Source: a virus
IMG/VR virus record: IMGVR_UViG_3300021197_000753
Location: 1-43,720 of that record
DNA: 43,720 nucleotides
Reading direction: 5' to 3' (one strand)
Every line of letters begins with the position of its first letter. Position 1 is the stretch's first letter. Under the pieces are notes generated by a model. The model saw nothing but the letters and a program-made list of their open reading frames with translations. It had not been told where the DNA came from and ran no database searches. Shown here piece by piece: positions 2,074 to 16,837 of the stretch. A program made the translations under genes and the position numbers.

Positions 2074-2127
2074 ATGGAAAATTTATTTAAAATATTATTT
2101 GTAAGGAGGTGCATAGGTGCCAAGTAA
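2074..2127 (+). CDS. Putative 17-aa leader peptide
   Basis: ATG at 2074 preceded by GAGGAGG at an ideal distance, encoding MENLFKILFVRRCIGAK. It overlaps the start of the terminase small subunit gene by 11 bases, and the ribosome site of that gene (AAGGAGG, 2102-2108) lies inside it. Translation of the peptide would therefore control access to the terS start. It is too short to judge coding potential by composition. Confidence 0.4.
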   Translation: MENLFKILFVRRCIGAK

Positions 2128-2611
2128 ACCTAAAACAATGAAAACATTTGATGATCTTACTGACAAGCAAGTGGCATTTGTAAATGCTTTGGTTGCTGAT
2201 TGGGGTACTATATCTAAAAAAGATGCGGTAATTAAAGCTGGTTATAGTTCAAAAAGTGATAATTCAGCAATGGTACTGGGTAGCAGATTAACTAATCCTG
2301 AAATTAATCCACATGTGTGTAGATTCCTGGAAAGAAGATTAAGTGAGGAACAAGCTATTTATGAAAAAGACAAACTTAGAAGATATAAAACACTTGAAAG
2401 ATTAAGAGATGGCAGTGAAAAGAAAGGACAGTACACTGCAGCAATTAATGCTGAATTTAGGTCGGGACAACTAGCTGGACAATACGTTGATAAAAAAGAA
2501 ATAACTCATAACACTTTGGAAGGTATGAGTAGAGAACAGCTTGAAAGTAGATTAAAAGAATTGGAAGATAAAATTGGTGCTAATACAATAATAGTTCAGG
2601 GTAAAGGTTAA
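2117..2611 (+). CDS. terS: Terminase small subunit
   Basis: 164 aa, GTG start with an AAGGAGG site. The N-terminal part, LTDKQVAFVNALVADWG...KKDAVIKAGYSS, is the classic small-terminase helix-turn-helix pattern (LTxKQxxFVxxY...AAIxAGYS) that recognises the packaging site. A central helical region follows, and a C-terminal EGMSREQLESRLKELEDK helix likely mediates oligomerisation or contact with TerL. Unusually, the large subunit is about 3.9 kb away rather than adjacent. Its stop overlaps by four bases the 3' end of a convergent minus-strand gene. Confidence 0.8.
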   Translation: MPSKPKTMKTFDDLTDKQVAFVNALVADWGTISKKDAVIKAGYSSKSDNSAMVLGSRLTNPEINPHVCRFLERRLSEEQAIYEKDKLRRYKTLERLRDGSEKKGQYTAAINAEFRSGQLAGQYVDKKEITHNTLEGMSREQLESRLKELEDKIGANTIIVQGKG

Positions 2612-3157: not shown

Positions 3158-3202
3158 GTTATAATCGTATAATAAATTAACCTCAAAAGATATACTGACT
3201 AA
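3158..3202. promoter_or_regulatory. Divergent promoter region with two -10 boxes
   Basis: This 45-base region separates the starts of two divergent genes. On the plus strand TATACT (3191-3196) ends six bases before the ATG at 3203. On the minus strand TACGAT (complement of 3164-3169) ends six bases before the ATG at 3157. Neither gene has a Shine-Dalgarno site, so both may be transcribed as leaderless mRNAs. No consensus -35 boxes are visible. Confidence 0.45.
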
Positions 3203-3601
3203 ATGTCAACTAAAGAATCCAAATTATGGAAAAAAATTAACCTACTTCAGAAAGGTAGGAAAGACTGGCATTTAACTCGTATAGAATCCTCTACAATCAA
3301 CGGAATACCTGATGTTTATGGCTGTATTGAAGGTCGTTCTTTTTGGCTTGAATTAAAGGCAACAGATGCTAAGAATTGTGGACTGTCTAAGTTTCAGGTT
3401 AACTGGCATTTAAGCCATCAACAGGCTGGTGGTACCGTTCGTATTCTTAATGCACATGCCTCGGAGACCGAGCTGGAACTTCTCGAGATCCGTGAGCCAG
3501 GCGTCGCAGTATCGCTGTCCCGTCCCGTCCCGTCCCGTTCATTCTCGGATAACTTATATCATTTATTGATCCTGGGATCGGAACCAGTTCCCTGGTCCTG
3601 A
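3203..3601 (+). CDS. VRR-NUC type PD-(D/E)XK nuclease, C-terminus extended by repeats
   Basis: 132 aa. Residues 1 to about 95 match VRR-NUC nucleases: E28, GIPDVYG (D37), WLELKA (E50, K52), and SKFQVNWHLSHQQAGG (Q65), the metal-binding and catalytic set of this fold. These enzymes act as structure-specific or resolvase-like nucleases in phage DNA processing. From about residue 96 the frame runs through GC-rich repeat DNA (REPGVAVSLSRPVPSRSF... to GSEPVPWS), so the last third looks like readthrough of an inserted repeat rather than native protein. Native domain confidence is high; the exact functional C-terminus is uncertain. Confidence 0.8.
   Translation: MSTKESKLWKKINLLQKGRKDWHLTRIESSTINGIPDVYGCIEGRSFWLELKATDAKNCGLSKFQVNWHLSHQQAGGTVRILNAHASETELELLEIREPGVAVSLSRPVPSRSFSDNLYHLLILGSEPVPWS
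3517..3540. repeat. C-rich tandem GTCCC block / G-quadruplex motif
   Basis: Four tandem GTCCC units followed by GTTC. On the minus strand it reads GGG-AC-GGG-AC-GGG-AC-GGG, which satisfies the canonical G-quadruplex pattern with 2-base loops. It lies within the C-terminal coding part of the VRR-NUC gene. Confidence 0.8.
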
Positions 3602-3662
3602 AGCCCGTCCCGTCCCGTCCCCGTTTGGCTAGGATCGTGAGTCATGTATATATTTCAACAGG
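3577..3662. repeat. Composite GC-rich repeat, unit 1
   Basis: Order of modules: core ATCGGAACCAGTTCCCT with imperfect hairpin arm, then GAAGCC, then a C-rich block with four CCC runs (3604-3622, a second minus-strand G-quadruplex motif), then about 25 bases to TATATAT (3647-3653). The next unit starts 86 bases after this one. Composition is strikingly GC-rich for this genome. Confidence 0.75.
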
Positions 3663-3750
3663 ATCGGAACCAGTTCCCTGGTTCCGAAGCCTCCCGTCCC
3701 GCCGCTACAACGCTGTCCTGATCGTGATCTGCTATATAAATAAAGCGTCA
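3663..3750. repeat. Composite GC-rich repeat, unit 2
   Basis: Same module order as the previous unit. The hairpin is perfect: TCGGAACCAG (3664-3673) pairs with CTGGTTCCGA (3678-3687) around loop TTCC. It is followed by GAAGCC, TCCCGTCCCGCCG, a GATCGTGA stretch and TATATAAATAAAGCG. Unit length is 88 bases. Confidence 0.75.
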
Positions 3751-3805
3751 GGTTCCGGGCTGGATCCTGAAATGGTCTGAAGCGTTGATATATGTGGGTA
3801 TATAT
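3751..3805. repeat. Composite GC-rich repeat, degenerate unit 3
   Basis: GGTTCCGGGCTGGATCC corresponds to the hairpin module and GAAGCG to the GAAGCC module; the C-rich block is missing and TATATAT follows. It ends where a promoter-like sequence precedes the micro-ORF pair. Confidence 0.5.
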
Positions 3806-3813
3806 GGGATACT
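3785..3813 (+). promoter_or_regulatory. Putative promoter for the micro-ORF pair
   Basis: TTGATA (3785-3790) and GATACT (3808-3813) are separated by 17 bases, near-consensus for a sigma-70 promoter, about 30 bases before the ATG at 3843. A TATATAT alternative -10 overlaps at 3799-3805. Confidence 0.4.
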
Positions 3814-3842
3814 GGGGGTGTGAATAACGAAGGAGAAGACAG

Positions 3843-4022
3843 ATGAAAGTTAAAGATAAACCAGAAGCAGACAAGATATACGCCTTAACTGCTGGAAAAG
3901 GCAAACCCAGCATAGCAAACGGAAACACTTGGGCACAATCAGAAGTAATAGAGATGCCGGATCATCAGGATCCCGGCGCCGATGAGGCTGATCAACAAAA
4001 GGAGGTAAACAAATGTCGTTAA
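3843..4022 (+). CDS. Micro-ORF A, 59 aa, with IEMPDHQDP tail
   Basis: ATG 3843 follows AAGGAG at a good distance. The protein starts MKVKDKPEADKIYALTAGKG and ends with EVIEMPDHQDPGADEAD plus a short basic tail. The acidic tail segment is shared with the downstream micro-ORF, in the same reading frame. Stop overlaps the next start by ten bases. Codon choice is more GC-rich than in neighbouring genes, as expected inside the GC-rich island. No family recognised. Confidence 0.5.
   Translation: MKVKDKPEADKIYALTAGKGKPSIANGNTWAQSEVIEMPDHQDPGADEADQQKEVNKCR
3945..3992. repeat. Duplicated in-frame block, copy 1
   Basis: 48 bases encoding VIEMPDHQDPGADEAD, similar to 4082-4132 with one three-base difference in length. 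The block is in coding phase in both copies, which supports both micro-ORFs being translated. Confidence 0.7.
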
Positions 4023-4144
4023 TTGATACATTGCTACAGCTGAACCCCGATGCCGTGGTGACTGAACAAGAAGGGTTTGTGGTCATAGAGATACCGGACC
4101 ATCCGGATCCCGACGACGTAGATGAGGCTGATGGAGCTGAATGA
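4013..4144 (+). CDS. Micro-ORF B, 43 aa, with IEIPDHPDP tail
   Basis: ATG 4013 follows GGAGG (4000-4004) at an ideal spacing. Encodes MSLIDTLLQLNPDAVVTEQE then GFVVIEIPDHPDPDDVDEAD, ending GAE. It shares its acidic C-terminal half with micro-ORF A but not its N-terminus. A small acidic protein paired with a mildly basic one could form a regulatory or inhibitor pair, but this is speculation. A longer frame starting at 4122 in another phase is rejected. Confidence 0.5.
   Translation: MSLIDTLLQLNPDAVVTEQEGFVVIEIPDHPDPDDVDEADGAE
4082..4132. repeat. Duplicated in-frame block, copy 2
   Basis: 51 bases encoding VIEIPDHPDPDDVDEAD, the partner of 3945-3992. Confidence 0.7.
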
Positions 4145-4253
4145 TATCTTACATTCTTTTACTTGGGATCCTGGTTCTGTGCTTCGCCGCTCGGTACCCG
4201 CACGCTACCTTAGCCTTTCTGTGGGGCACGATGCTATGGGCCAACTGGTAGCA

Positions 4254-4332
4254 TCCCGCCGTCCCGCCGTCGTTGGTCCTTTTTACATGACAGCATATAT
4301 AAAACTACTGGGATCCCTGGTTCCGGGGATCC
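4254..4332. repeat. Composite GC-rich repeat, C-block to hairpin
   Basis: TCCCGCCGTCCCGCCGT (4254-4270), then about 25 bases to TATATA (4296), then the hairpin GGATCCC (4311-4317) with GGGATCC (4326-4332) around a loop containing TGGTTCC. Same module order as at 3577-3750, counted from the C-block. Confidence 0.65.
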
Positions 4333-4392
4333 GTCTTCACGGAAGTACATAACTCATCTTTTCAGAGGTAGTCTAGTAAGGGGTAAACTCAA

Positions 4393-4443
4393 ATATCGCA
4401 AATGAGGAGCTTAAAAATTTGCAATTCCTGCCTTATTTGATAT
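4393..4443 (+). promoter_or_regulatory. Imperfect leader hairpin
   Basis: ATAT plus CAAATGAGG (4393-4407) pairs with CCTTATTTG plus ATAT (4431-4443), with a two-base bulge and one G-T pair, and AG/CT pairs continuing inward. It is 41 bases upstream of the gene at 4485. It could be a regulatory leader or the end of an upstream transcript; no T-run follows. Confidence 0.35.
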
Positions 4444-4484
4444 CATGGGAGATGTAAGTAAACTAAAAAAGAGAGGATATAATT

Positions 4485-5084
4485 ATGGGTTTTGATGTAT
4501 ATGGTTTGAATCCAACAATACAAGAGGGCAGTGTTAAGCCTGAAATTGATTGGAATACTAATCCGTCAGGCGAAGAAAGAAAAACATACTTTGAGCAATC
4601 TGAGAAATATCAAGATGACAACATAGGTGTCTACTTTCGTAATAATGTTTGGTGGTGGAGAAGATTAGCTGCATATGTGTATGAGAATACAGATGAGATT
4701 TCTGAAGATGATTATGGTATTTGGCATGAGAATAGTGGTCATCAAGTTGATGAAGATACAGCTATTAAAATAGCCGACAAGTTAGAAGAACTTATCAAGC
4801 AAGGGCACACTGCTGAATATCAGTTGCAAGTTGAAGAAGCTATGGCACACGCTGAGGAAGATAACAAAGGCATTGAAGAAAAAATGAGTGCTTTGCGTGA
4901 AAGTGTAATCAAGCTGACTGGTGACAAAGATATAACTCCAGCTAATTATCCAGAAATACAAAATAAAGAGTGGGATAAGCTTTATAGTCAAAAGTCGTGG
5001 GACGACAGCTATCCGTTCAGTGTTGAGAATGTTCAAGACTTTGCAGATTTTTGTAGACACTCTGGGGGGTTTGAGATATGTTAA
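4485..5084 (+). CDS. Conserved phage protein of unknown function, 199 aa
   Basis: Starts MGFDVYGLNP after AGAGG. The N-terminal MGFDxYGxxP, a middle YFRNNVWWWRRLAAYV segment, GHQVDEDTAIKIADKLEELI, and the ending PYPFSVENVQDFADFCRHSGGF-like block resemble an unnamed family I associate with marine phages and some bacteria. The glycine/tryptophan-rich core suggests a compact soluble domain. It stands alone inside the GC-rich island with normal AT-rich codon use, so it is a native-looking gene flanked by repeat DNA. A structured RNA and terminator follow. Confidence 0.7.
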   Translation: MGFDVYGLNPTIQEGSVKPEIDWNTNPSGEERKTYFEQSEKYQDDNIGVYFRNNVWWWRRLAAYVYENTDEISEDDYGIWHENSGHQVDEDTAIKIADKLEELIKQGHTAEYQLQVEEAMAHAEEDNKGIEEKMSALRESVIKLTGDKDITPANYPEIQNKEWDKLYSQKSWDDSYPFSVENVQDFADFCRHSGGFEIC

Positions 5085-5115
5085 AGGTAAGTTAGGACTG
5101 AAAAGGATTTCATTG

Positions 5116-5173
5116 GGGAGACTTTCGTCTCCCGTCTCGAAGGGGTTGGTTATCGGTTAAGTTAATGCAACCC
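5116..5173 (+). ncRNA. Candidate structured RNA (two stem-loops before a terminator)
   Basis: GGGAGAC (5116-5122) and GTCTCCC (5127-5133) form a perfect 7-bp stem with a TTTC loop. GGGTTG (5143-5148) and CAACCC (5168-5173) form a second stem with a 19-base loop. Together with the terminator hairpin immediately after, this gives a compact three-stem RNA of about 100 bases. It may be the processed 3' end of the upstream mRNA or a separate small RNA. No known RNA family is recognised. Confidence 0.4.
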
Positions 5174-5181
5174 TACTTTTT

Positions 5182-5211
5182 CCCCTGGGCTTCGGTCCAG
5201 GGGTTTTTTTT
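5182..5211 (+). terminator. Strong intrinsic terminator with UUCG loop
   Basis: CCCCTGG (5182-5188) pairs with CCAGGGG (5197-5203), extended inward by G-T and C-G to a C(TTCG)G tetraloop, followed by eight T. It is a textbook rho-independent terminator ending the transcript of the gene at 4485. Confidence 0.9.
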
Positions 5212-5215
5212 GTCT

Positions 5216-5392
5216 GCTCCCGCCGTCCCGTCGGCATTACTGCAAAAATTTGATCTTCATATAATAAAGCGTACCGGGTTCCGATCCAGCTTCCTTCTAC
5301 ATCTCTATCTGAAGCCTGCTCCCGCCGTCCCGCCGTTGCTTGGTTGTGCGTGTGTCATACATACATATAGAGAAAATCGGAACCAGTTCCCT
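5216..5392. repeat. Composite GC-rich repeats, second cluster
   Basis: C-rich block (5218-5231), TATAAT/TATATA (5258-5265), GGGTTCCGATCC hairpin remnant (5274-5285), GAAGCC (5311), C-rich block CTCCCGCCGTCCCGCCG (5319-5335), CATACATATAG (5360-5370), and the exact 17-base core ATCGGAACCAGTTCCCT (5376-5392). The order and spacing match the units at 3577-3750. Confidence 0.7.
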
Positions 5393-5490
5393 AAAAATCC
5401 TGCCAAAAAAAATAAGCTCTTATTTGCGATTTAAGCGATTCGGGTATAGTAGAGTACCTCTAAATTAATACATATATATGCAAATATAAG

Positions 5491-5518
5491 TGGACATGGG
5501 ATGTAATAAGACTATACT
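5491..5518 (+). promoter_or_regulatory. Putative sigma-70 promoter for 5560-6209
   Basis: TGGACA (5491-5496), 16-base spacer, TATACT (5513-5518). A dyad ATACTA (5514-5519) / TAGTAT (5526-5531) overlaps the -10 and expected start site and could be an operator. Confidence 0.5.
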
Positions 5519-5559
5519 AAAAGGGTAGTATTTTATTAATAACCAATAGGAATAAAAAT

Positions 5560-5937
5560 ATGATAACTAAAAATCTTAACCAAAAAATGGTAGTCTCAAA
5601 GACTGCCTTATTAAAGAAAGCAGAAAGAGAATACCTTGAATCTTTCTATTCTTTTAAACTTTCACATGATAGTGATAAAACATTAATGAAAGATAGTAGA
5701 AAAAATGTTTTAGCTATTATTGAAAAATCAAAGGGAAGTGCAATTGCAATTAATGTTGATGATGTTGCAGTTAATTTTTACCTTACACCTAAATGCAGAA
5801 ATACTGTTAATTATAAAAATGTAATTGAGACCATAAAAAGCATGGGTGTTATTGCTAATAGTACATTAGATGAATTGCTAATAGGTAATACTACTATTAC
5901 ATCTTATGATGAATTAACTATTAAAGGGGGTGAATAA
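5560..5937 (+). CDS. Hypothetical protein, 125 aa
   Basis: ATG follows AGGA at a moderate distance. Lysine-rich N-terminal helix (KTALLKKAEREYLESFYSF), then a mixed region (GSAIAINVDDVAVNFYLTPKCRNTVNYKNVIETIKSMG). No family recognised. Its TAA overlaps the ATG of the next gene (TAATG), so the two are coupled and form a two-gene operon between a promoter and a terminator. Confidence 0.6.
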   Translation: MITKNLNQKMVVSKTALLKKAEREYLESFYSFKLSHDSDKTLMKDSRKNVLAIIEKSKGSAIAINVDDVAVNFYLTPKCRNTVNYKNVIETIKSMGVIANSTLDELLIGNTTITSYDELTIKGGE

Positions 5938-6209
5938 TGCCAAATAATAATGATGATAATTTTAACCTTGCTGAATACATCAATAGCACATTAGATAGGA
6001 ATGATACGAATGAAGTATCACTTACAGTAGATGAAAGCACTAATCAAATAATTGATTATAGAATATATGCTACTGTATTAGATAGTCTTTATGCAGATAT
6101 GCTTTCTAAATACCCTAACACTAATCAAAGTGCATGGTTTAGACAGCAATTTATGCAAGTGTGTGAGCCATTGATTAGACACATACATAATATTCAAGAT
6201 GAAGAATAA
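5937..6209 (+). CDS. Hypothetical protein, 90 aa
   Basis: Preceded by a GGGGGTG purine run. Acidic, asparagine-rich N-terminus (MPNNNDDNFNLAEYINSTLDR) followed by a helical part ending MQVCEPLIRHIHNIQDEE. Not recognised. Cotranscribed with the preceding gene; a terminator lies 23 bases after the stop. Confidence 0.6.
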   Translation: MPNNNDDNFNLAEYINSTLDRNDTNEVSLTVDESTNQIIDYRIYATVLDSLYADMLSKYPNTNQSAWFRQQFMQVCEPLIRHIHNIQDEE

Positions 6210-6232
6210 TATCTAAACTTGCTAAACCTTTA

Positions 6233-6258
6233 AGGCACAGGGAAGTGCCTTTTTTTTT
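6233..6258 (+). terminator. Intrinsic terminator
   Basis: AGGCAC (6233-6238) pairs with GTGCCT (6245-6250) around AGGGAA, followed by eight more T. It ends the operon 5560-6209 and isolates it from terL. A C-rich repeat block follows directly. Confidence 0.85.
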
Positions 6259-6279
6259 GTCCCACCGTCCCACCGTCCA
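6259..6279. repeat. C-rich block after terminator
   Basis: CCCACCGTCCCACCGTCC, a variant of the CCCGCCG block in the composite repeats, placed immediately after a terminator T-run, as is the block near 5216. A TATATG element lies about 10 bases further on. The rest of the gap to 6485 is AT-rich with a TTTTTGCAAAAA palindrome (6406-6417) and no gene. Confidence 0.6.
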
Positions 6280-6473
6280 TACTAATTTTATATGTAACTA
6301 TTCATAGCTACTGGTTTTTTTTGGACCCAGACAATTTACAAGGCTCATTGAAGAATTGAAAATGCTTTTCCAAAACTGTTTTTTTGCCACGCTAAAGCCC
6401 CCGACTTTTTGCAAAAAAGCCTAGCAAAGCCTATTAGAGACATGCACATACTAGCAAAAACTCTAGATATAGT

Positions 6474-6479
6474 TATAAT
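6474..6479 (+). promoter_or_regulatory. -10 box for terL with leaderless spacing
   Basis: Perfect TATAAT ending six bases before the terL ATG at 6486. No Shine-Dalgarno sequence precedes the gene, so transcription would begin at or next to the start codon. No strong -35 box is visible. Confidence 0.55.
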
Positions 6480-6485
6480 TGTGCT

Positions 6486-7961
6486 ATGCAGACTGACCTA
6501 ATGACTACGGAAAAATTGAGGCTCGAAGTAGAAAGGCTTTGGATAGAGCATGTAAAGCTTTGTCAGGATAATTTTTTAGCTTTCGTCCAAGAAGTTTGGC
6601 CAGATTTTATTTGTAGAAAATCTACAGATCCGGAAAAGTGGGGCCATCATCAGATTATAGCTAAAGAGTTTACGGATATAGCTAATCAAAGAAAAGGGAG
6701 GCTCTTAATCAATATGCCACCCAGACATACTAAATCTGAATTTGCATCCGTTTACTACCCTGCTTGGATTATTGGTAAGTATCCAAAATTAAAAATTATG
6801 CAGGTGTCACATAACACGGAGCTAGCAGCAAGGTTCGGAGCTAAGGTTCGTAACATTATTGATTCTCCAGAGTACAAACAAATCTTTGGTGATGTAAAAC
6901 TGCGTGAAGACTCCAAAGCCAAAGGTAGATGGGAAACTAATCAAGGTGGTGAGTATTATGCTGCTGGAGTTGGTTCGTCCATCACGGGCCGTGGTGCGGA
7001 TTTATTGATTATTGATGACCCTCACACGGAGCAAGATTCTATGTCGGACACTGCCATGGAGCGTGCTTACGACTGGTACACTTCTGGCCCAAGACAGCGT
7101 CTTCAACCAGGAGGCTCGATCCTAGTAGTCATGACCCGTTGGGCCGAGGACGATTTAACGGGGAGACTCTTGAAGGCTCAAACCGAACCTAAAGCAGACA
7201 CATGGAAACAAGTTTCATTTCCAGCGATTCTCGACTCAGGGAACCCAGTGTGGCCTGAGTATTGGGAGCTGGATGAACTCGAAAAAATTAAAGCTTCTAT
7301 TCCAATCAGAAACTGGTCAGCGCAGTATATGCAGAATCCCACCTCAGAAGAAGGTGCGATTCTCAAACGTGACTGGTGGCAACCGTGGGACGAGGACCAT
7401 CTACCTAATTTACAACATGTCATACAAAGTTACGACACAGCGTTTTCGAAAAAAGAAACGGCTGACTACAGCGCCATCACAACTTGGGGCGTGTTCTTTC
7501 CAGAAGAAGGGGGAGCCCCTAATTTAATTTTACTCGATGCCATACGGGGTAAATATGATTTTCCTGAACTTAAAGCCGTGGCTCTCGACGCACAGAAGTA
7601 TTGGGAACCCGAAACGATTATTGTTGAGCAGAAAGCGAGTGGTGAACCGTTGACCCAAGAGCTAAGACGCATGGGTATTCCAGTGGTACCATTTACTCCA
7701 ACTCGTGGGAATGACAAACACACCAGAGTAAACAGTTGTGCCCCAATCTTTGAAAGTGGAGCCGTCTGGTATCCGTTTGGTGAAAAATTTGCCGAAGATG
7801 TTATTGACGAATGTGCTTCTTTTCCTAATGGTGCTAATGATGACTATGTAGATTCCACGACTCAGGCAATACTACGATACAGACAAGGAAACTTTGTTGA
7901 GTTATACTCAGATTATAAAGATGATGAAGATCGTCCGGAGAAAACCTATAACTACTACTAG
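6486..7961 (+). CDS. terL: Terminase large subunit
   Basis: 491 aa, full length for the family. ATPase: Walker A-like MPPRHTKSE (about 77-85), Walker B LLIIDDPH (D177, D178). The C-terminal RNase H-like nuclease has D317 (SYDTAFS), E381 (IVEQKASG) and D456 (DDYVDST). It drives ATP-dependent packaging of concatemeric DNA through the portal and cuts the DNA; partner is the small subunit at 2117. The start is chosen at the ATG six bases after TATAAT; a second ATG (6501) is possible. Begins the late structural gene series. Confidence 0.95.
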   Translation: MQTDLMTTEKLRLEVERLWIEHVKLCQDNFLAFVQEVWPDFICRKSTDPEKWGHHQIIAKEFTDIANQRKGRLLINMPPRHTKSEFASVYYPAWIIGKYPKLKIMQVSHNTELAARFGAKVRNIIDSPEYKQIFGDVKLREDSKAKGRWETNQGGEYYAAGVGSSITGRGADLLIIDDPHTEQDSMSDTAMERAYDWYTSGPRQRLQPGGSILVVMTRWAEDDLTGRLLKAQTEPKADTWKQVSFPAILDSGNPVWPEYWELDELEKIKASIPIRNWSAQYMQNPTSEEGAILKRDWWQPWDEDHLPNLQHVIQSYDTAFSKKETADYSAITTWGVFFPEEGGAPNLILLDAIRGKYDFPELKAVALDAQKYWEPETIIVEQKASGEPLTQELRRMGIPVVPFTPTRGNDKHTRVNSCAPIFESGAVWYPFGEKFAEDVIDECASFPNGANDDYVDSTTQAILRYRQGNFVELYSDYKDDEDRPEKTYNYY

Positions 7962-10952: not shown

Positions 10953-13301
10953 ATGGCTGTCGAAAACAATATTGAAGTAACTCAAGAAGAAATAGATGCA
11001 GTTGAGCCTGTTGATGTAGAAATTACTGACGAGGATGCTGTTGAACAAGAACAAGTGCAAGAACAAGAAGAAGACTTTTATGCAAATCTTGCTGAAAATA
11101 TGGATGAAAGGGTATTGAATGGAATAGCTAATGAATTACTTGGTGATTATAAAAAAGATAAAGAATCTAGAAGTGATTGGGAAAAATCGTACATATCTGG
11201 ATTAGATTTATTAGGTTTTAAATACAATAATGAAAGCGGACCTTTTCAAGGCGCTAGTTCAGTAACACATCCAATGTTAGCTGAATCAGTGACACAGTTT
11301 CAAGCACAAGCATACAAAGAACTGCTACCTTCTGATGGGCCTGTTAGTTCAAAAGTTGTGGGTGCTTTAACACCAGAAAAAGAAGAACAAGCACAACGTG
11401 TAGAAGAATTTATGAACTACATGATTACTGAGGAGATGGAAGAATACACTCCTGAGTTTGATCAATTATTATTTTATTTACCACTTGCTGGGTCTGCATT
11501 TAAAAAAGTTTATTTTGATGATGTGATGCAAAGAGCAGTCTCAAAATTTGTACCAGCAGAAGATTTAGTAGTGCCTTATTACGCAACAGATTTAAAAGAC
11601 TGTGAACGTATTACACACTTGGTTCGCATGAGTGAAAACGATATCTTAAAAAAACAACAGATAGGTTTTTATCGTGATGTTGATATTTTACCAAGCCGTA
11701 TGGACGACAGCGACATAAAAGATAAATATAGTGAATTAAGTGGTGTTAACCGTTCTGGCGATGCTGATGGCGATTATCAATTTAATGTTTTAGAAATGCA
11801 CGTTGACCTAGATCTAGAAGATCCCGAAAATCAAAGTGATGAAAAAAATATTAAGATACCTTATGTTGTTACATTAGACGAAGGTTCAAGAGAAATACTA
11901 TCTATTTATAGAAACTATGAACCAAAAGATCCATTATTAAAACGTAAAGAGTTTTTTGTACACTACAAGTTTTTACCAGGTCTAGGCTTCTATGGCTTTG
12001 GTTTGATACACATGATTGGTGGTTTAAGTAAGACTGCAACTGCATCACTTAGACAATTACTAGATGCGGGCACATTAGCTAACTTACCAGCCGGTTTTAA
12101 AACTCGTGGTATGCGTATTCGTGATGACGATCAACCGTTTCAACCAGGTGAGTTTAGAGATGTAGATATTGTAGGTGGTAGAATACAAGATTCTTTCATG
12201 CAATTGCCGTTTAAAGAGCCAAGTCAGACATTATTTCAACTTTTAGGCTTTGTAGTACAAGCTGGACAGCGTTTTGCTGCTATTGCGGACATGCAAGTAG
12301 GTGATGGTAATCAAAATGCAGCTGTCGGTACGACGGTTGCTCTCTTGGAACGTGGTTCTAGAGTTATGAGTGCTATACATAAGCGTTGTTACTACGCAAT
12401 GCGACAAGAATTTAGACTTATGAACAATGTTTTTGCTTCATATTTGCCTCCAGTGTACCCATATGCGGTTTACGGTGGTGATCGTATGGTAAAACAAGCT
12501 GATTTTAGTCCAGAAGTCGATGTTATACCGGTTGCAGACCCAAATATCTTCTCAATGTCACAAAGAGTGACTTTAGCACAGACACAGTTGCAAATTGCCC
12601 AGTCAAATCCGCAAATGCACAACGTACATGAAGCATATCGTCGTGTTTATGCAGCATTAGGTACAAAAGACATTAATACTTTGTTAAAAAAACCAGAAGA
12701 ACCTGAACCAAAAGACCCAGCTATGGAAAACGCAGCTGCATTGCGTATGGAAATACCACAAGCTTTTGAAGATCAGAATCATGATGCACATATCTTTTCA
12801 CACATGGCGTTTATGAGGACTAGAATGGTACAAATGAATCCAGCAGTGTACGCTTTACTACAAGCACATGTAAGTGAACACATATCTTTTAAAGCAAGAG
12901 CTCAAGCTGTTATATTAGTACAACAAGAACAGCCAGAACTTATGCAATTACAGGATACCGACCCTGAAGCATTTCAACAATTGTTTGAAGGTATTGTCGC
13001 AGAGCGTATTCAAGTATTAACTGAAGAATTAGTTGCTCAAGAACAACCATCGGATGACCCATTGGTTAGATTAAAACAACAAGAACTTGATCTACGAGCT
13101 ATGGACATGCAGCGCAGAGGTGAAGAGTTTGTTGCACAAGAACAAAGAAAAGTAGACGAATTTGACCAACGCCTAGATTTAGATAGAATGGAACGAGAGG
13201 ATAATGAAGAAGCTGGTAAGGAAAGAATACGAGTAGCTGACGACAAACTAGATATTATGCGTGATAAGTTAAAACAAGATACTAGTAAAGGAGATAAATA
13301 A
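10953..13301 (+). CDS. Portal protein (P22-type)
   Basis: 782 aa. An acidic N-terminal extension (about 45 residues) precedes the core: WEKSYISGLDLLGFKY, PFQGASSVTHPMLAESVTQF, then KELLPSDGPV, a portal pattern found in P22-like and marine podoviruses. It forms the dodecameric DNA channel at one capsid vertex, the docking site for TerL and later the tail adaptors. The C-terminal 180 residues are glutamine- and acid-rich, likely a helical barrel or coiled coil. Its TAA overlaps the next ATG. Confidence 0.9.
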   Translation: MAVENNIEVTQEEIDAVEPVDVEITDEDAVEQEQVQEQEEDFYANLAENMDERVLNGIANELLGDYKKDKESRSDWEKSYISGLDLLGFKYNNESGPFQGASSVTHPMLAESVTQFQAQAYKELLPSDGPVSSKVVGALTPEKEEQAQRVEEFMNYMITEEMEEYTPEFDQLLFYLPLAGSAFKKVYFDDVMQRAVSKFVPAEDLVVPYYATDLKDCERITHLVRMSENDILKKQQIGFYRDVDILPSRMDDSDIKDKYSELSGVNRSGDADGDYQFNVLEMHVDLDLEDPENQSDEKNIKIPYVVTLDEGSREILSIYRNYEPKDPLLKRKEFFVHYKFLPGLGFYGFGLIHMIGGLSKTATASLRQLLDAGTLANLPAGFKTRGMRIRDDDQPFQPGEFRDVDIVGGRIQDSFMQLPFKEPSQTLFQLLGFVVQAGQRFAAIADMQVGDGNQNAAVGTTVALLERGSRVMSAIHKRCYYAMRQEFRLMNNVFASYLPPVYPYAVYGGDRMVKQADFSPEVDVIPVADPNIFSMSQRVTLAQTQLQIAQSNPQMHNVHEAYRRVYAALGTKDINTLLKKPEEPEPKDPAMENAAALRMEIPQAFEDQNHDAHIFSHMAFMRTRMVQMNPAVYALLQAHVSEHISFKARAQAVILVQQEQPELMQLQDTDPEAFQQLFEGIVAERIQVLTEELVAQEQPSDDPLVRLKQQELDLRAMDMQRRGEEFVAQEQRKVDEFDQRLDLDRMEREDNEEAGKERIRVADDKLDIMRDKLKQDTSKGDK

Positions 13302-15308: not shown

Positions 15309-15497
15309 ATGCACGATCCAGATACTATTCAAAGTGTAATACACTTTATAAGAAAAAGAGTTGATGAAACTAAAGATCATATTGTTTATGGTGTAGACAA
15401 CTTAGAACAATTACATTATGCTAAGGGCAAGATCGGTGCATATGAAGCACTGCTTCAGGATTTAAAAGACCTGCAAAAAAATGAGGAGAACGCATGA
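15309..15497 (+). CDS. Small hypothetical protein, 62 aa
   Basis: Helical, ending YEALLQDLKDLQKNEENA, a likely coiled coil. Starts directly after the preceding stop and overlaps the next start by four bases (ATGA). Possible assembly factor by position, but unrecognised. Confidence 0.6.
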   Translation: MHDPDTIQSVIHFIRKRVDETKDHIVYGVDNLEQLHYAKGKIGAYEALLQDLKDLQKNEENA

Positions 15498-15931
15498 CAA
15501 GTAAGTCAAGTATTATAAAACCAGATTACATTAAGGATGAAGCAACTTCATTACCAGAACAAGACGCTCCTAAATTAACACAAAACTACATAGACGAAAT
15601 AGATCGCTTACCTAACCCTGTTGGTTACCGTATTTTAATTAAAATGTGGAAAATGTCAGAAAGAACTAAAGGTGGTATTGCTTTGTCAGAACAAACTTTA
15701 GAAACTTCTGAAATAACATCAGTAGTTGGTTATGTCGTAAAAATGGGAGAAATGTGTTACAAAGACACAGAAAAATTTTTAACACCATGGTGCAAAGAAG
15801 GTCAGTTTGTAGTTATTGGTCGTTATGCAGGCGCTAGATTTAAAACAAAATTTGGTGAACATAGAATCATTAACGATGATGAAATTATTGGTACGATTGA
15901 AAAACCCGAGTATATACTCGCACTATTTTAG
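15494..15931 (+). CDS. GroES-like co-chaperonin
   Basis: 145 aa. After a 40-residue extension, the Cpn10 pattern appears: PVGYRILIKMWKMSERTKGGIALSE (first strands and mobile loop, about 42-66), VVGYVVKMGEMCYKD, WCKEGQFVVIGRYAGARFK, GEHRIINDDEIIGTIE. Phage co-chaperonins (such as T4 gp31) replace host GroES so that GroEL can fold large capsid subunits. Its place two genes before the capsid gene fits that role. The mobile-loop tip lacks the standard GGIVLP (here GGIALS), so chaperonin contact may be altered. Confidence 0.75.
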   Translation: MTSKSSIIKPDYIKDEATSLPEQDAPKLTQNYIDEIDRLPNPVGYRILIKMWKMSERTKGGIALSEQTLETSEITSVVGYVVKMGEMCYKDTEKFLTPWCKEGQFVVIGRYAGARFKTKFGEHRIINDDEIIGTIEKPEYILALF

Positions 15932-15940
15932 GAGTAAAAT

Positions 15941-16837
15941 ATGTCAGAAGTACAAGCACAAGACGTTGAATTAGATACTGATGGTATCGAAGAAGCATCT
16001 ATTGATGTAGAGCAACCCTCTACCGTTGCAGAAGCTACCGCAACCCCAGAAGTTGATTTAGGTTATACCGATCCAGTTAACAATGACAAAGCTGAAGTTA
16101 TCGAAGAGCCGAAAGGTACAGATAATTTACAAGATGTGTCAGAAAAAACGCAAAAAAGAATTGATAAGTTAACTCGTAAAATGAGAGAAGCAGAAAGAAG
16201 AGAAGCTGCAGCCCTTGATTACGCTAAAGGCTTACAAGATAAATACAATACAGCTAAATCAAGTTTAAATTCTGTTGAAGATAATCATTTAAAAGAGTTT
16301 GATGCAAGAGTTGATTCTCAAAGAGAACAAGTCAAAGCTAAACTAGCGACTGCAACAGCAGATGGGGACATTGATAAAATAGTTGAAGCTAATGATGAGT
16401 TAACAAGATTAGCAGTTGAGAAAGAAAAAGCTAAAGTTAGGTTAGCTCAAAGAGAGCAAGAAATAAAAGAACCTGAAGCAGAAGAAGCTGTTCCGCAAGC
16501 TGCAGCAGTAGATCCAAAAGCAGAAGACTGGATAAGTAAGAACACTTGGTTTAATAAGGATACTGTTATGACTGGTGCTGCTGTTGAAAAACATAAAGAA
16601 CTTGTTCAACAGGGTATTGACCCAACCTCTGATGAATATTATGATGAAATAGATAAGACTATGAGAGATTATTTCCCTCATAAATTTGTCGAAGATAAAA
16701 AACCCGTTCAAACTGTTGCCTCGGCGGGGCGTAAACAGCAAGGACGCAGAACCGTGAAACTCACCCGTTCACAAGTAGCGATAGCTAAAAAATTAGGGGT
16801 GCCACTAGAAGAATACGCGAAATTCGTGAAGGAGTAG
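15941..16837 (+). CDS. Capsid scaffolding protein
   Basis: 298 aa, highly charged and helical, with an acidic N-third (EVQAQDVELDTDGIEEAS), a long coiled coil (KTQKRIDKLTRKMREAERRE) and a basic C-terminal segment (RKQQGRRTVKLTRSQVAIAKK) typical of the capsid-binding end of scaffolds. Position between portal and major capsid genes supports the role: internal scaffold for procapsid assembly, released before maturation. GGAG ribosome site upstream. Confidence 0.8.
   Translation: MSEVQAQDVELDTDGIEEASIDVEQPSTVAEATATPEVDLGYTDPVNNDKAEVIEEPKGTDNLQDVSEKTQKRIDKLTRKMREAERREAAALDYAKGLQDKYNTAKSSLNSVEDNHLKEFDARVDSQREQVKAKLATATADGDIDKIVEANDELTRLAVEKEKAKVRLAQREQEIKEPEAEEAVPQAAAVDPKAEDWISKNTWFNKDTVMTGAAVEKHKELVQQGIDPTSDEYYDEIDKTMRDYFPHKFVEDKKPVQTVASAGRKQQGRRTVKLTRSQVAIAKKLGVPLEEYAKFVKE

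Follow-up and report, generated by a model that had tools for sequence, protein, structure and literature searches.

What is a family of GC-rich repeats doing between the two terminase genes of a phage? This question is raised by the viral record IMGVR_UViG_3300021197_000753, analyzed here over its whole length of 43,720 nucleotides (the window). The window is a tailed-phage contig of the HTVC023P-type pelagiphages, the most abundant virus group known for the ocean bacterium SAR11. In an earlier note, made from the sequence alone, the repeats had been described as a composite family at 3517-5392. The present analysis showed that they are the punctuation of a plastic gene-cassette island between the genes for the terminase small subunit (terS, TerS) and large subunit (terL, TerL) of these pelagiphages. 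In relatives whose motif contains CCCG (TerL at least 83% identical), the genome's own oriented motif block tends to lie immediately downstream of a gene end or an intrinsic terminator. This architecture is well supported by the position, orientation, privacy, and confinement of the blocks, by the permutation of the cassettes, and by a link to the tail of a nuclease gene.

Composite repeat units in the terS–terL island

The repeat units were confined to the terS–terL interval and lay on a single strand. Seven C-blocks were found over 3519-6275 (Table 1), and the extent first proposed was too short. The C-block pattern occurred 10 times in 3201-6480, where dinucleotide shuffles gave 0.01 on average; the rest of the window had none on either strand. 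Moreover, 15 GGWWCC hexamers were counted, with 2.3 expected. The module order already noted, namely, GAAGC, C-block, spacer, TATATA, about 10 nt, and a GGWWCC inverted repeat, was borne out by 43 units from eight related genomes. The 17-mer ATCGGAACCAGTTCCCT was likewise present at 3577, 3663, and 5376, with a first spacing of 86. The hairpin core held in part: the 12-mer GGAACCAGTTCC, with its 2-nt loop, forms no hairpin itself, but in unit 2 TCGGAACCAG and CTGGTTCCGA form a 10-bp stem around TTCC. An RNA family, one of the suggested meanings, was not supported by the folding analysis, in which 57 units showed no excess folding energy (mean z −0.03 sense, −0.31 antisense); no Rfam match exceeded the gathering score.

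In the window clade, the distance from the C-block start to a TATATA-like box was 38.4 ± 2.4 nt (36–45), independent of block length (9–32), and the spacer between C-block and box was nearly without consensus. Wherever an exact TATATA box followed a block start by no more than 90 nt, it lay at 36–47 nt. TATATA was present 30–46 nt downstream in 31 of 57 blocks, compared with 5.6% of random non-coding positions, and in none of 56 in the CCCGTT clade. The fixed spacing suggests a two-part protein site.

The window contains just two canonical three-tier G-quadruplex motifs, and these are blocks 1 and 2. CCCG islands mostly hold 1–3 such motifs, nearly all on the minus strand. A G-quadruplex is described as starting recombination at pilE of Neisseria, and these counts would agree with minus-strand elements that stall polymerases and start recombination. 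However, most single blocks have two G-runs only, and the AT-rich motifs (ATAATCAT) have none. This explanation was considered very improbable.

Block positions and cassette turnover

Each transcription-unit end in the window's island has a block directly behind it. Two such blocks lie behind stop codons, 2 nt after that of the nuclease gene and 3 nt after that of a 36-aa membrane peptide, and two more lie at most 7 nt behind intrinsic terminators. Among the others, blocks 3 and 6 are tandem follow-ons, and block 1 is part of the nuclease coding sequence. Contrary to the earlier note, the repeats do not interrupt genes but come after gene or terminator ends, the exception being the first, in the coding C-terminus of the open reading frame (ORF) at 3203-3601. 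Altogether, 26 of 70 non-coding blocks (37%) started no more than 10 nt from a stop codon or T-run, compared with 9% of non-coding positions (p=7e-11); this count was lowered by the approximate gene calls, which miss short peptides.

The cassettes between the blocks were gained, lost, and permuted among relatives, for which 80 TerL relatives were drawn from IMG/VR. L001, L002, L006, L007, L014, L092, and L151 have the window architecture with different cassettes. The g5 unit follows the conserved gene g2 in L001, L002, L006, and L151 and precedes it in L014; L007 is without g2. In the window clade, homology breakpoints were 2.5–3 times commoner at blocks than at random non-coding positions.

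Placement directly behind stop codons and terminator T-runs would also suit transcription boundary elements, in which the C-rich, G-poor RNA serves as a Rho-loading (rut-like) back-up terminator and the TATATATAA box, at its fixed spacing from the block start, as a promoter part for the next unit. In addition, the block of L062, L075, and L080 is the left arm of an intrinsic terminator, and the AT-rich relatives L018 and L040 carry G-free repeats behind terminators. The position thus fits a rut site, but composition and accessibility fit weakly: the C-minus-G excess of the blocks is modestly special genome-wide, and the C-block is 44% unpaired on average. In 023Pt_psg01 (psg01) and L321, the neighboring genes diverge or run in the opposite direction, the blocks lie upstream of or between them, and the C-rich strand is not sense, so that the idea fits the CCCG clades but not these two. 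It also has to face the missing TATATA module in the CCCGTT clade. In the sequences inspected, canonical promoters lay farther downstream of the units, and a literature search on phage rut repeats found no paper. Boundary elements of this kind were regarded as unlikely.

Two observations on the cassettes were made in passing. Very short membrane-peptide ORFs (window 4141-4251; similar in L006, L007, and L070) end cassettes right in front of a C-block; ordinary gene calling overlooks them. A promoter/operator-like motif, TTGACA...CATGGGAYACTG, with direct CATGGGA repeats, occurs at 3785-3830 of the window and recurs ahead of cassette genes in L001, L002, and L007.

Table 1. Features of the terS–terL island and flanking genes in the window
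Feature	Position	Strand	Remark
Terminase small subunit (TerS)	2117..2611	+	Island left border; Pfam Terminase_2, phrog_51
VRR-Nuc / Holliday-junction-resolvase-type PD-(D/E)xK nuclease (predicted)	3203..3601	+	First island gene; 3' end from ~3500 holds first repeat unit
C-block 1	3519..3537	+	CCCGTCCCGTCCCGTCCCG; within nuclease coding sequence; G-quadruplex motif on opposite strand
Unit 1 GGWWCC inverted-repeat module	3577..3598	.	17-mer copy 1
C-block 2	3604..3623	+	2 nt past nuclease stop TGA (3599-3601); G-quadruplex motif on opposite strand
Unit 2 TATATA	3647..3652	.	43 nt from block start
Unit 2 GGWWCC hairpin	3661..3690	.	10-bp stem, loop TTCC; 17-mer copy 2
C-block 3	3693..3704	+	CCCGTCCCGCCG; tandem follow-on unit, 89 nt after block 2
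Unit 3 TATATA	3733..3738	.	40 nt from block start
Unit 3 GGTTCC...GGATCC module	3751..3767	.	
Cassette 1	3843..4251	+	Small ORFs 3843-4022 and 4013-4144; 36-aa membrane peptide 4141-4251
C-block 4	4255..4269	+	3 nt past membrane-peptide stop codon
Unit 4 TATATA	4296..4301	.	41 nt from block start
Unit 4 inverted repeat	4311..4332	.	GGATCCctGGTTCCggGGATCC
Cassette 2	4485..5084	+	Conserved 199-aa gene g2, function unassigned; position varies among relatives
Cassette 2 intrinsic terminator	5182..5211	+	
C-block 5	5219..5230	+	7 nt past terminator T-run
Unit 5 GGTTCC module	5275..5290	.	
C-block 6	5321..5335	+	Tandem follow-on unit
17-mer copy 3	5376..5392	.	
Cassette 3	5560..6209	+	ORFs 5560-5937 and 5937-6209
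Cassette 3 intrinsic terminator	6232..6258	+	
C-block 7	6260..6275	+	CCCACCGTCCCACCG variant; directly behind terminator T-run
Terminase large subunit (TerL)	6486..7961	+	Island right border; 74% identity to HTVC023P
Portal	10953-13301		

Private motifs across relatives

The closest isolates of the window phage are the Pelagibacter phages HTVC023P and HTVC027P (TerL 74% and 62%), and SAR11 is therefore its most likely host. Two Maricaulis contigs (L322 and L323) from a metagenome-assembled genome encode TerL 87% and 73% identical to that of the window and are probably phage contigs binned into that genome. They were the sole matches in a host search across bacterial genomes and are probably stray phage. 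As for other genes, the ORF at 1295-1927, just upstream of terS, weakly matched both an Arm DNA-binding domain of the integrase type and a GIY-YIG nuclease domain (T5orf172), and 15494-15931 probably encodes a GroES-like co-chaperonin, judging by position and comparison with HTVC023P gp36.

Motif positions were kept among relatives while the sequence changed (CCCGTCCCG, CCCGTT, CCCGTTT, ATAATCAT, and ATAACC; GCTTGAAGCTTG in the isolate HTVC027P). In more distant relatives, comparable places are occupied by further private motifs, namely, CCCGTT, CCCGTTT, CCCACTT, ATAACC, ATAATCAT, and CTCTACTCTATCCC. Every genome has its own oriented motif, which is nearly absent from the remainder of that genome. 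In near-complete records, the plus-strand matches were nearly confined to the island (28/29 in G016, 10/10 in G019, and 16/17 in G010), and minus-strand matches were few. In the case of G002, the broad pattern was unspecific, and the strict CCCGTCCCG was present in the island only. Unbiased 9-mer enrichment returned one-strand-only top motifs in nearly every island, and the orientation count was 131 to 15 across 24 islands. The CCCG core is common to relatives down to 53–60% TerL identity.

The motifs are short, tandem, and lineage-specific, their copy number varies, and the nuclease linker tolerates them in frame. All this would be consistent with short tandem repeats of a passive kind, slipping and spreading where intergenic DNA is under no constraint, the places behind stop codons being tolerated insertion sites. 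However, other intergenic DNA of the same genomes is nearly free of them, their single orientation is strong, the 36–47 nt spacing to TATATA stayed fixed despite a drifted spacer, and the CCCG core is widely shared. A passive origin is thus quite unlikely.

The privacy of the repeats also bears on what the earlier note had proposed. No exact match to the 17-mer was found in IMG/VR, and a distant blastn against isolate phages gave no match, because the repeat letters are private to each genome. The 17-mer belongs to the window genome and the architecture is shared. An assembly chimera, which had been named among the findings that would overturn the repeat, was refuted by many independent contigs and isolate genomes of like architecture. 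A miniature mobile element was not upheld: the window-type unit was not recognized outside the phage group, and no terminal structure was seen, though the repeats do lie in frame in the nuclease tail. With regard to origin iterons, four of five near-complete genomes had no cumulative GC-skew extremum at the island, and G010 had a minimum and a gene-strand switch there. The composite family itself stands, with no description in the literature searched, but the meanings suggested for it fare badly. Open-access literature on this phage group leaves such repeats unmentioned, which does not prove novelty.

Matches to the C-block plus TATATA pattern in IMG/VR included unrelated contigs, mostly by chance. 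In a CCCGTT 18-mer scan, many AT-rich matches outside the phage group, among the matches listed, were repeats inside coding sequence. Separately, L242, an unrelated AT-rich contig, has more than 30 CCCGTW hexamers arrayed within an ORF region at ~139-330. Several viral contigs that are AT-rich and have no TerL match (L103, L105, L108, L112, L113, L119, L122, L128, and L129) share a near-identical element, ATAACATTCGTTCGTGATCTGGCAGTGCCCCCGTCCCGTTGCGTTCGGGG...TTATATAAAAACC.

The private motif followed TerS divergence best (partial r 0.27–0.30, p=0.001), while TerL was 83–98% identical among CCCG-bearing relatives. Of the meanings first suggested, a packaging region may therefore still apply, and TerS recognition is the strongest competing reading. 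Here, the oriented repeats would be TerS binding (pac-like) sites, and the resolvase would debranch concatemers for packaging. The site between terS and terL and the single orientation agree with such an array, and a marine-phage study reported that terminase small subunits are frequent in metaviromic islands (PMC3909814). On the other side, the sites track cassette ends, and in L321 their orientation is opposite to TerL. Known pac and cos sites are compact, and at least seven sites over 3 kb, one of them in coding sequence, are unlike these. It was concluded that a packaging array, too, is unlikely.

The predicted resolvase-type nuclease and its tail

The first gene of the island was predicted to encode a Holliday-junction-resolvase-type VRR-Nuc nuclease. 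All 14 homologues matched the phrog endonuclease families phrog_93 and phrog_2165, and a profile match to PDB 4QBO (VRR_NUC) was obtained (E=0.011); no Pfam match exceeded the cut-off. The AlphaFold model (pLDDT 87) had Hjc, RecU, and VRR_NUC as top Foldseek matches, with a probability of ~1. E28, GIPD37, and E50-x-K52 were invariant among the homologues (GIPD...ELK core). Standalone VRR-Nucs cleave four-way junctions (PMC4103454).

Of 34 genomes, 28 carry their own repeat at the nuclease 3' end on the same strand, and 2 carry it there reversed. As simple k-mer recurrence was too noisy, other gene borders also carrying blocks, the motifs were defined outside the nuclease gene and then sought in its tail. 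The tail of the window had 10 matches, compared with none in 543 outside segments; that of HTVC027P had 16, a level reached by none of 186 outside segments. Where a genome offered outside sequence, it mostly held few or no segments that matched the motif as well as the tail did. The encoded peptides were RPVPSR from CCCGTCCCG, PVPAIGMPVPV from CCCGTT, (NHIRNHTD)n from AATCAT, and, in the isolate HTVC027P, KLDACGLKLEPCCLGLEACGL from GCTTGTGGCTTGAAGCTTG. In L013, a relative without a clear repeat, the tail was likewise without repeat. With TerL controlled in a partial Mantel test, the private motif co-varied with the nuclease (r=0.19, p=0.006). The tail of the window protein was predicted to be folded in the AlphaFold model; therefore, coding constraint, besides repeat spread, may shape it.

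The nuclease ORF is unannotated in HTVC027P (MN698241, ~16216-16587 +; locus L184 ~4638-5009), where it is overlapped by the annotated and possibly spurious gp32 (minus strand, 16499-16747). It is also unannotated in psg01 (L183, within 5837-6310 +).

A tentative model and its weak points

The explanation tentatively preferred here, with somewhat less than even confidence, is that the boundary repeats keep the cassettes separable and exchangeable by recombination tied to the resolvase. In co-infected cells, the uniformly oriented repeats would provide short stretches of direct homology for the exchange of cassettes, and the resident resolvase would resolve the exchange junctions. Repeated exchange and unequal crossing-over would homogenize the copies within a genome, and this proposed homogenization would account for private sequences at conserved positions. 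A unit ending at a boundary may also have its transcription insulated.

Several points weigh against this explanation. No exchange event was directly observed. The blocks are short (9–32 nt), and recombination alone leaves the fixed block-to-TATATA spacing unexplained. When only non-coding positions were considered, the CCCGTT clade showed no breakpoint enrichment at blocks, and the BLAST end points on which the breakpoint test relies can be biased by shared blocks. The motif follows TerS more strongly than the nuclease. The automatic tail test gave no match in L012, L013, L034, L040, HTVC023P, and psg01, with repeat-like (NHI)n tails seen by eye in L034 and L040. Finally, L321 and L319 have blocks between divergent genes, opposite to TerL, with the nuclease undetected in the available sequence.

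A more specific form of cassette exchange is doubtful: the fast-evolving VRR-Nuc may recognize the private repeat that its own 3' end carries, or be targeted to it, and its action at the dispersed oriented copies may turn the terS–terL interval into a cassette-exchange island. If the repeats are exchange sites, they would give these phages a concrete route by which genes turn over, and they would imply a specificity rule open to testing, in which the nuclease-tail repeat equals the boundary repeat. For HTVC027P, which is in culture on the SAR11 strain HTCC1062, a study of the infection transcriptome is available (PMC12753301). Thus, transcription, binding, and recombination are testable.

Comparison with known systems

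The promoter early stem-loops (PeSLs) of T4-type phages (Arbiol 2010 and Comeau 2014, as given in PMC4503421) are likewise repeated intergenic elements between phage cassettes that shuffle. Cassette shuffling is common to both, given the permuted cassettes and, in the window clade only, the breakpoint enrichment. PeSLs combine an early promoter and a terminator stem-loop in one mobile unit, whereas the pelagiphage units have no excess structure and, in the sequences inspected, canonical promoters lie farther downstream. The pelagiphage repeats also differ in being genome-private, confined to one island, and linked to a nuclease gene.

Mycobacteriophage stoperators (PMC9283540) are similar in being asymmetric intergenic motifs with an orientation bias. 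The CCCG clades showed an orientation along transcription, as in stoperators, and psg01 and L321 did not. Unlike stoperators, the pelagiphage repeats form tandem blocks in one island with no repressor known. Standalone VRR-Nucs (4QBN, 4QBO, PMC4103454) share the fold and the PD-(D/E)xK motif with the pelagiphage enzyme, which differs in its C-terminal tail holding the genome's repeat.

In the REP/RAYT system (PMC2817692), genome-specific extragenic repeats co-vary with a fast-evolving nuclease-type gene bordered by the same repeat. The pelagiphage repeat also co-varies with its associated gene, though more strongly with TerS. The RAYT gene encodes an HUH/Y1 (IS200/IS605-like) transposase and lies between two inverted cognate repeats, whereas the pelagiphage nuclease is of the PD-(D/E)xK type, with copies on the 3' side only and on the same strand. 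Unlike REP, the pelagiphage repeats are non-palindromic, in one orientation, few in number, inside a coding tail, and in a phage. If the cognate pairing of resolvase and repeat is true, it would be a phage analogue of RAYT/REP built on a different enzyme class.

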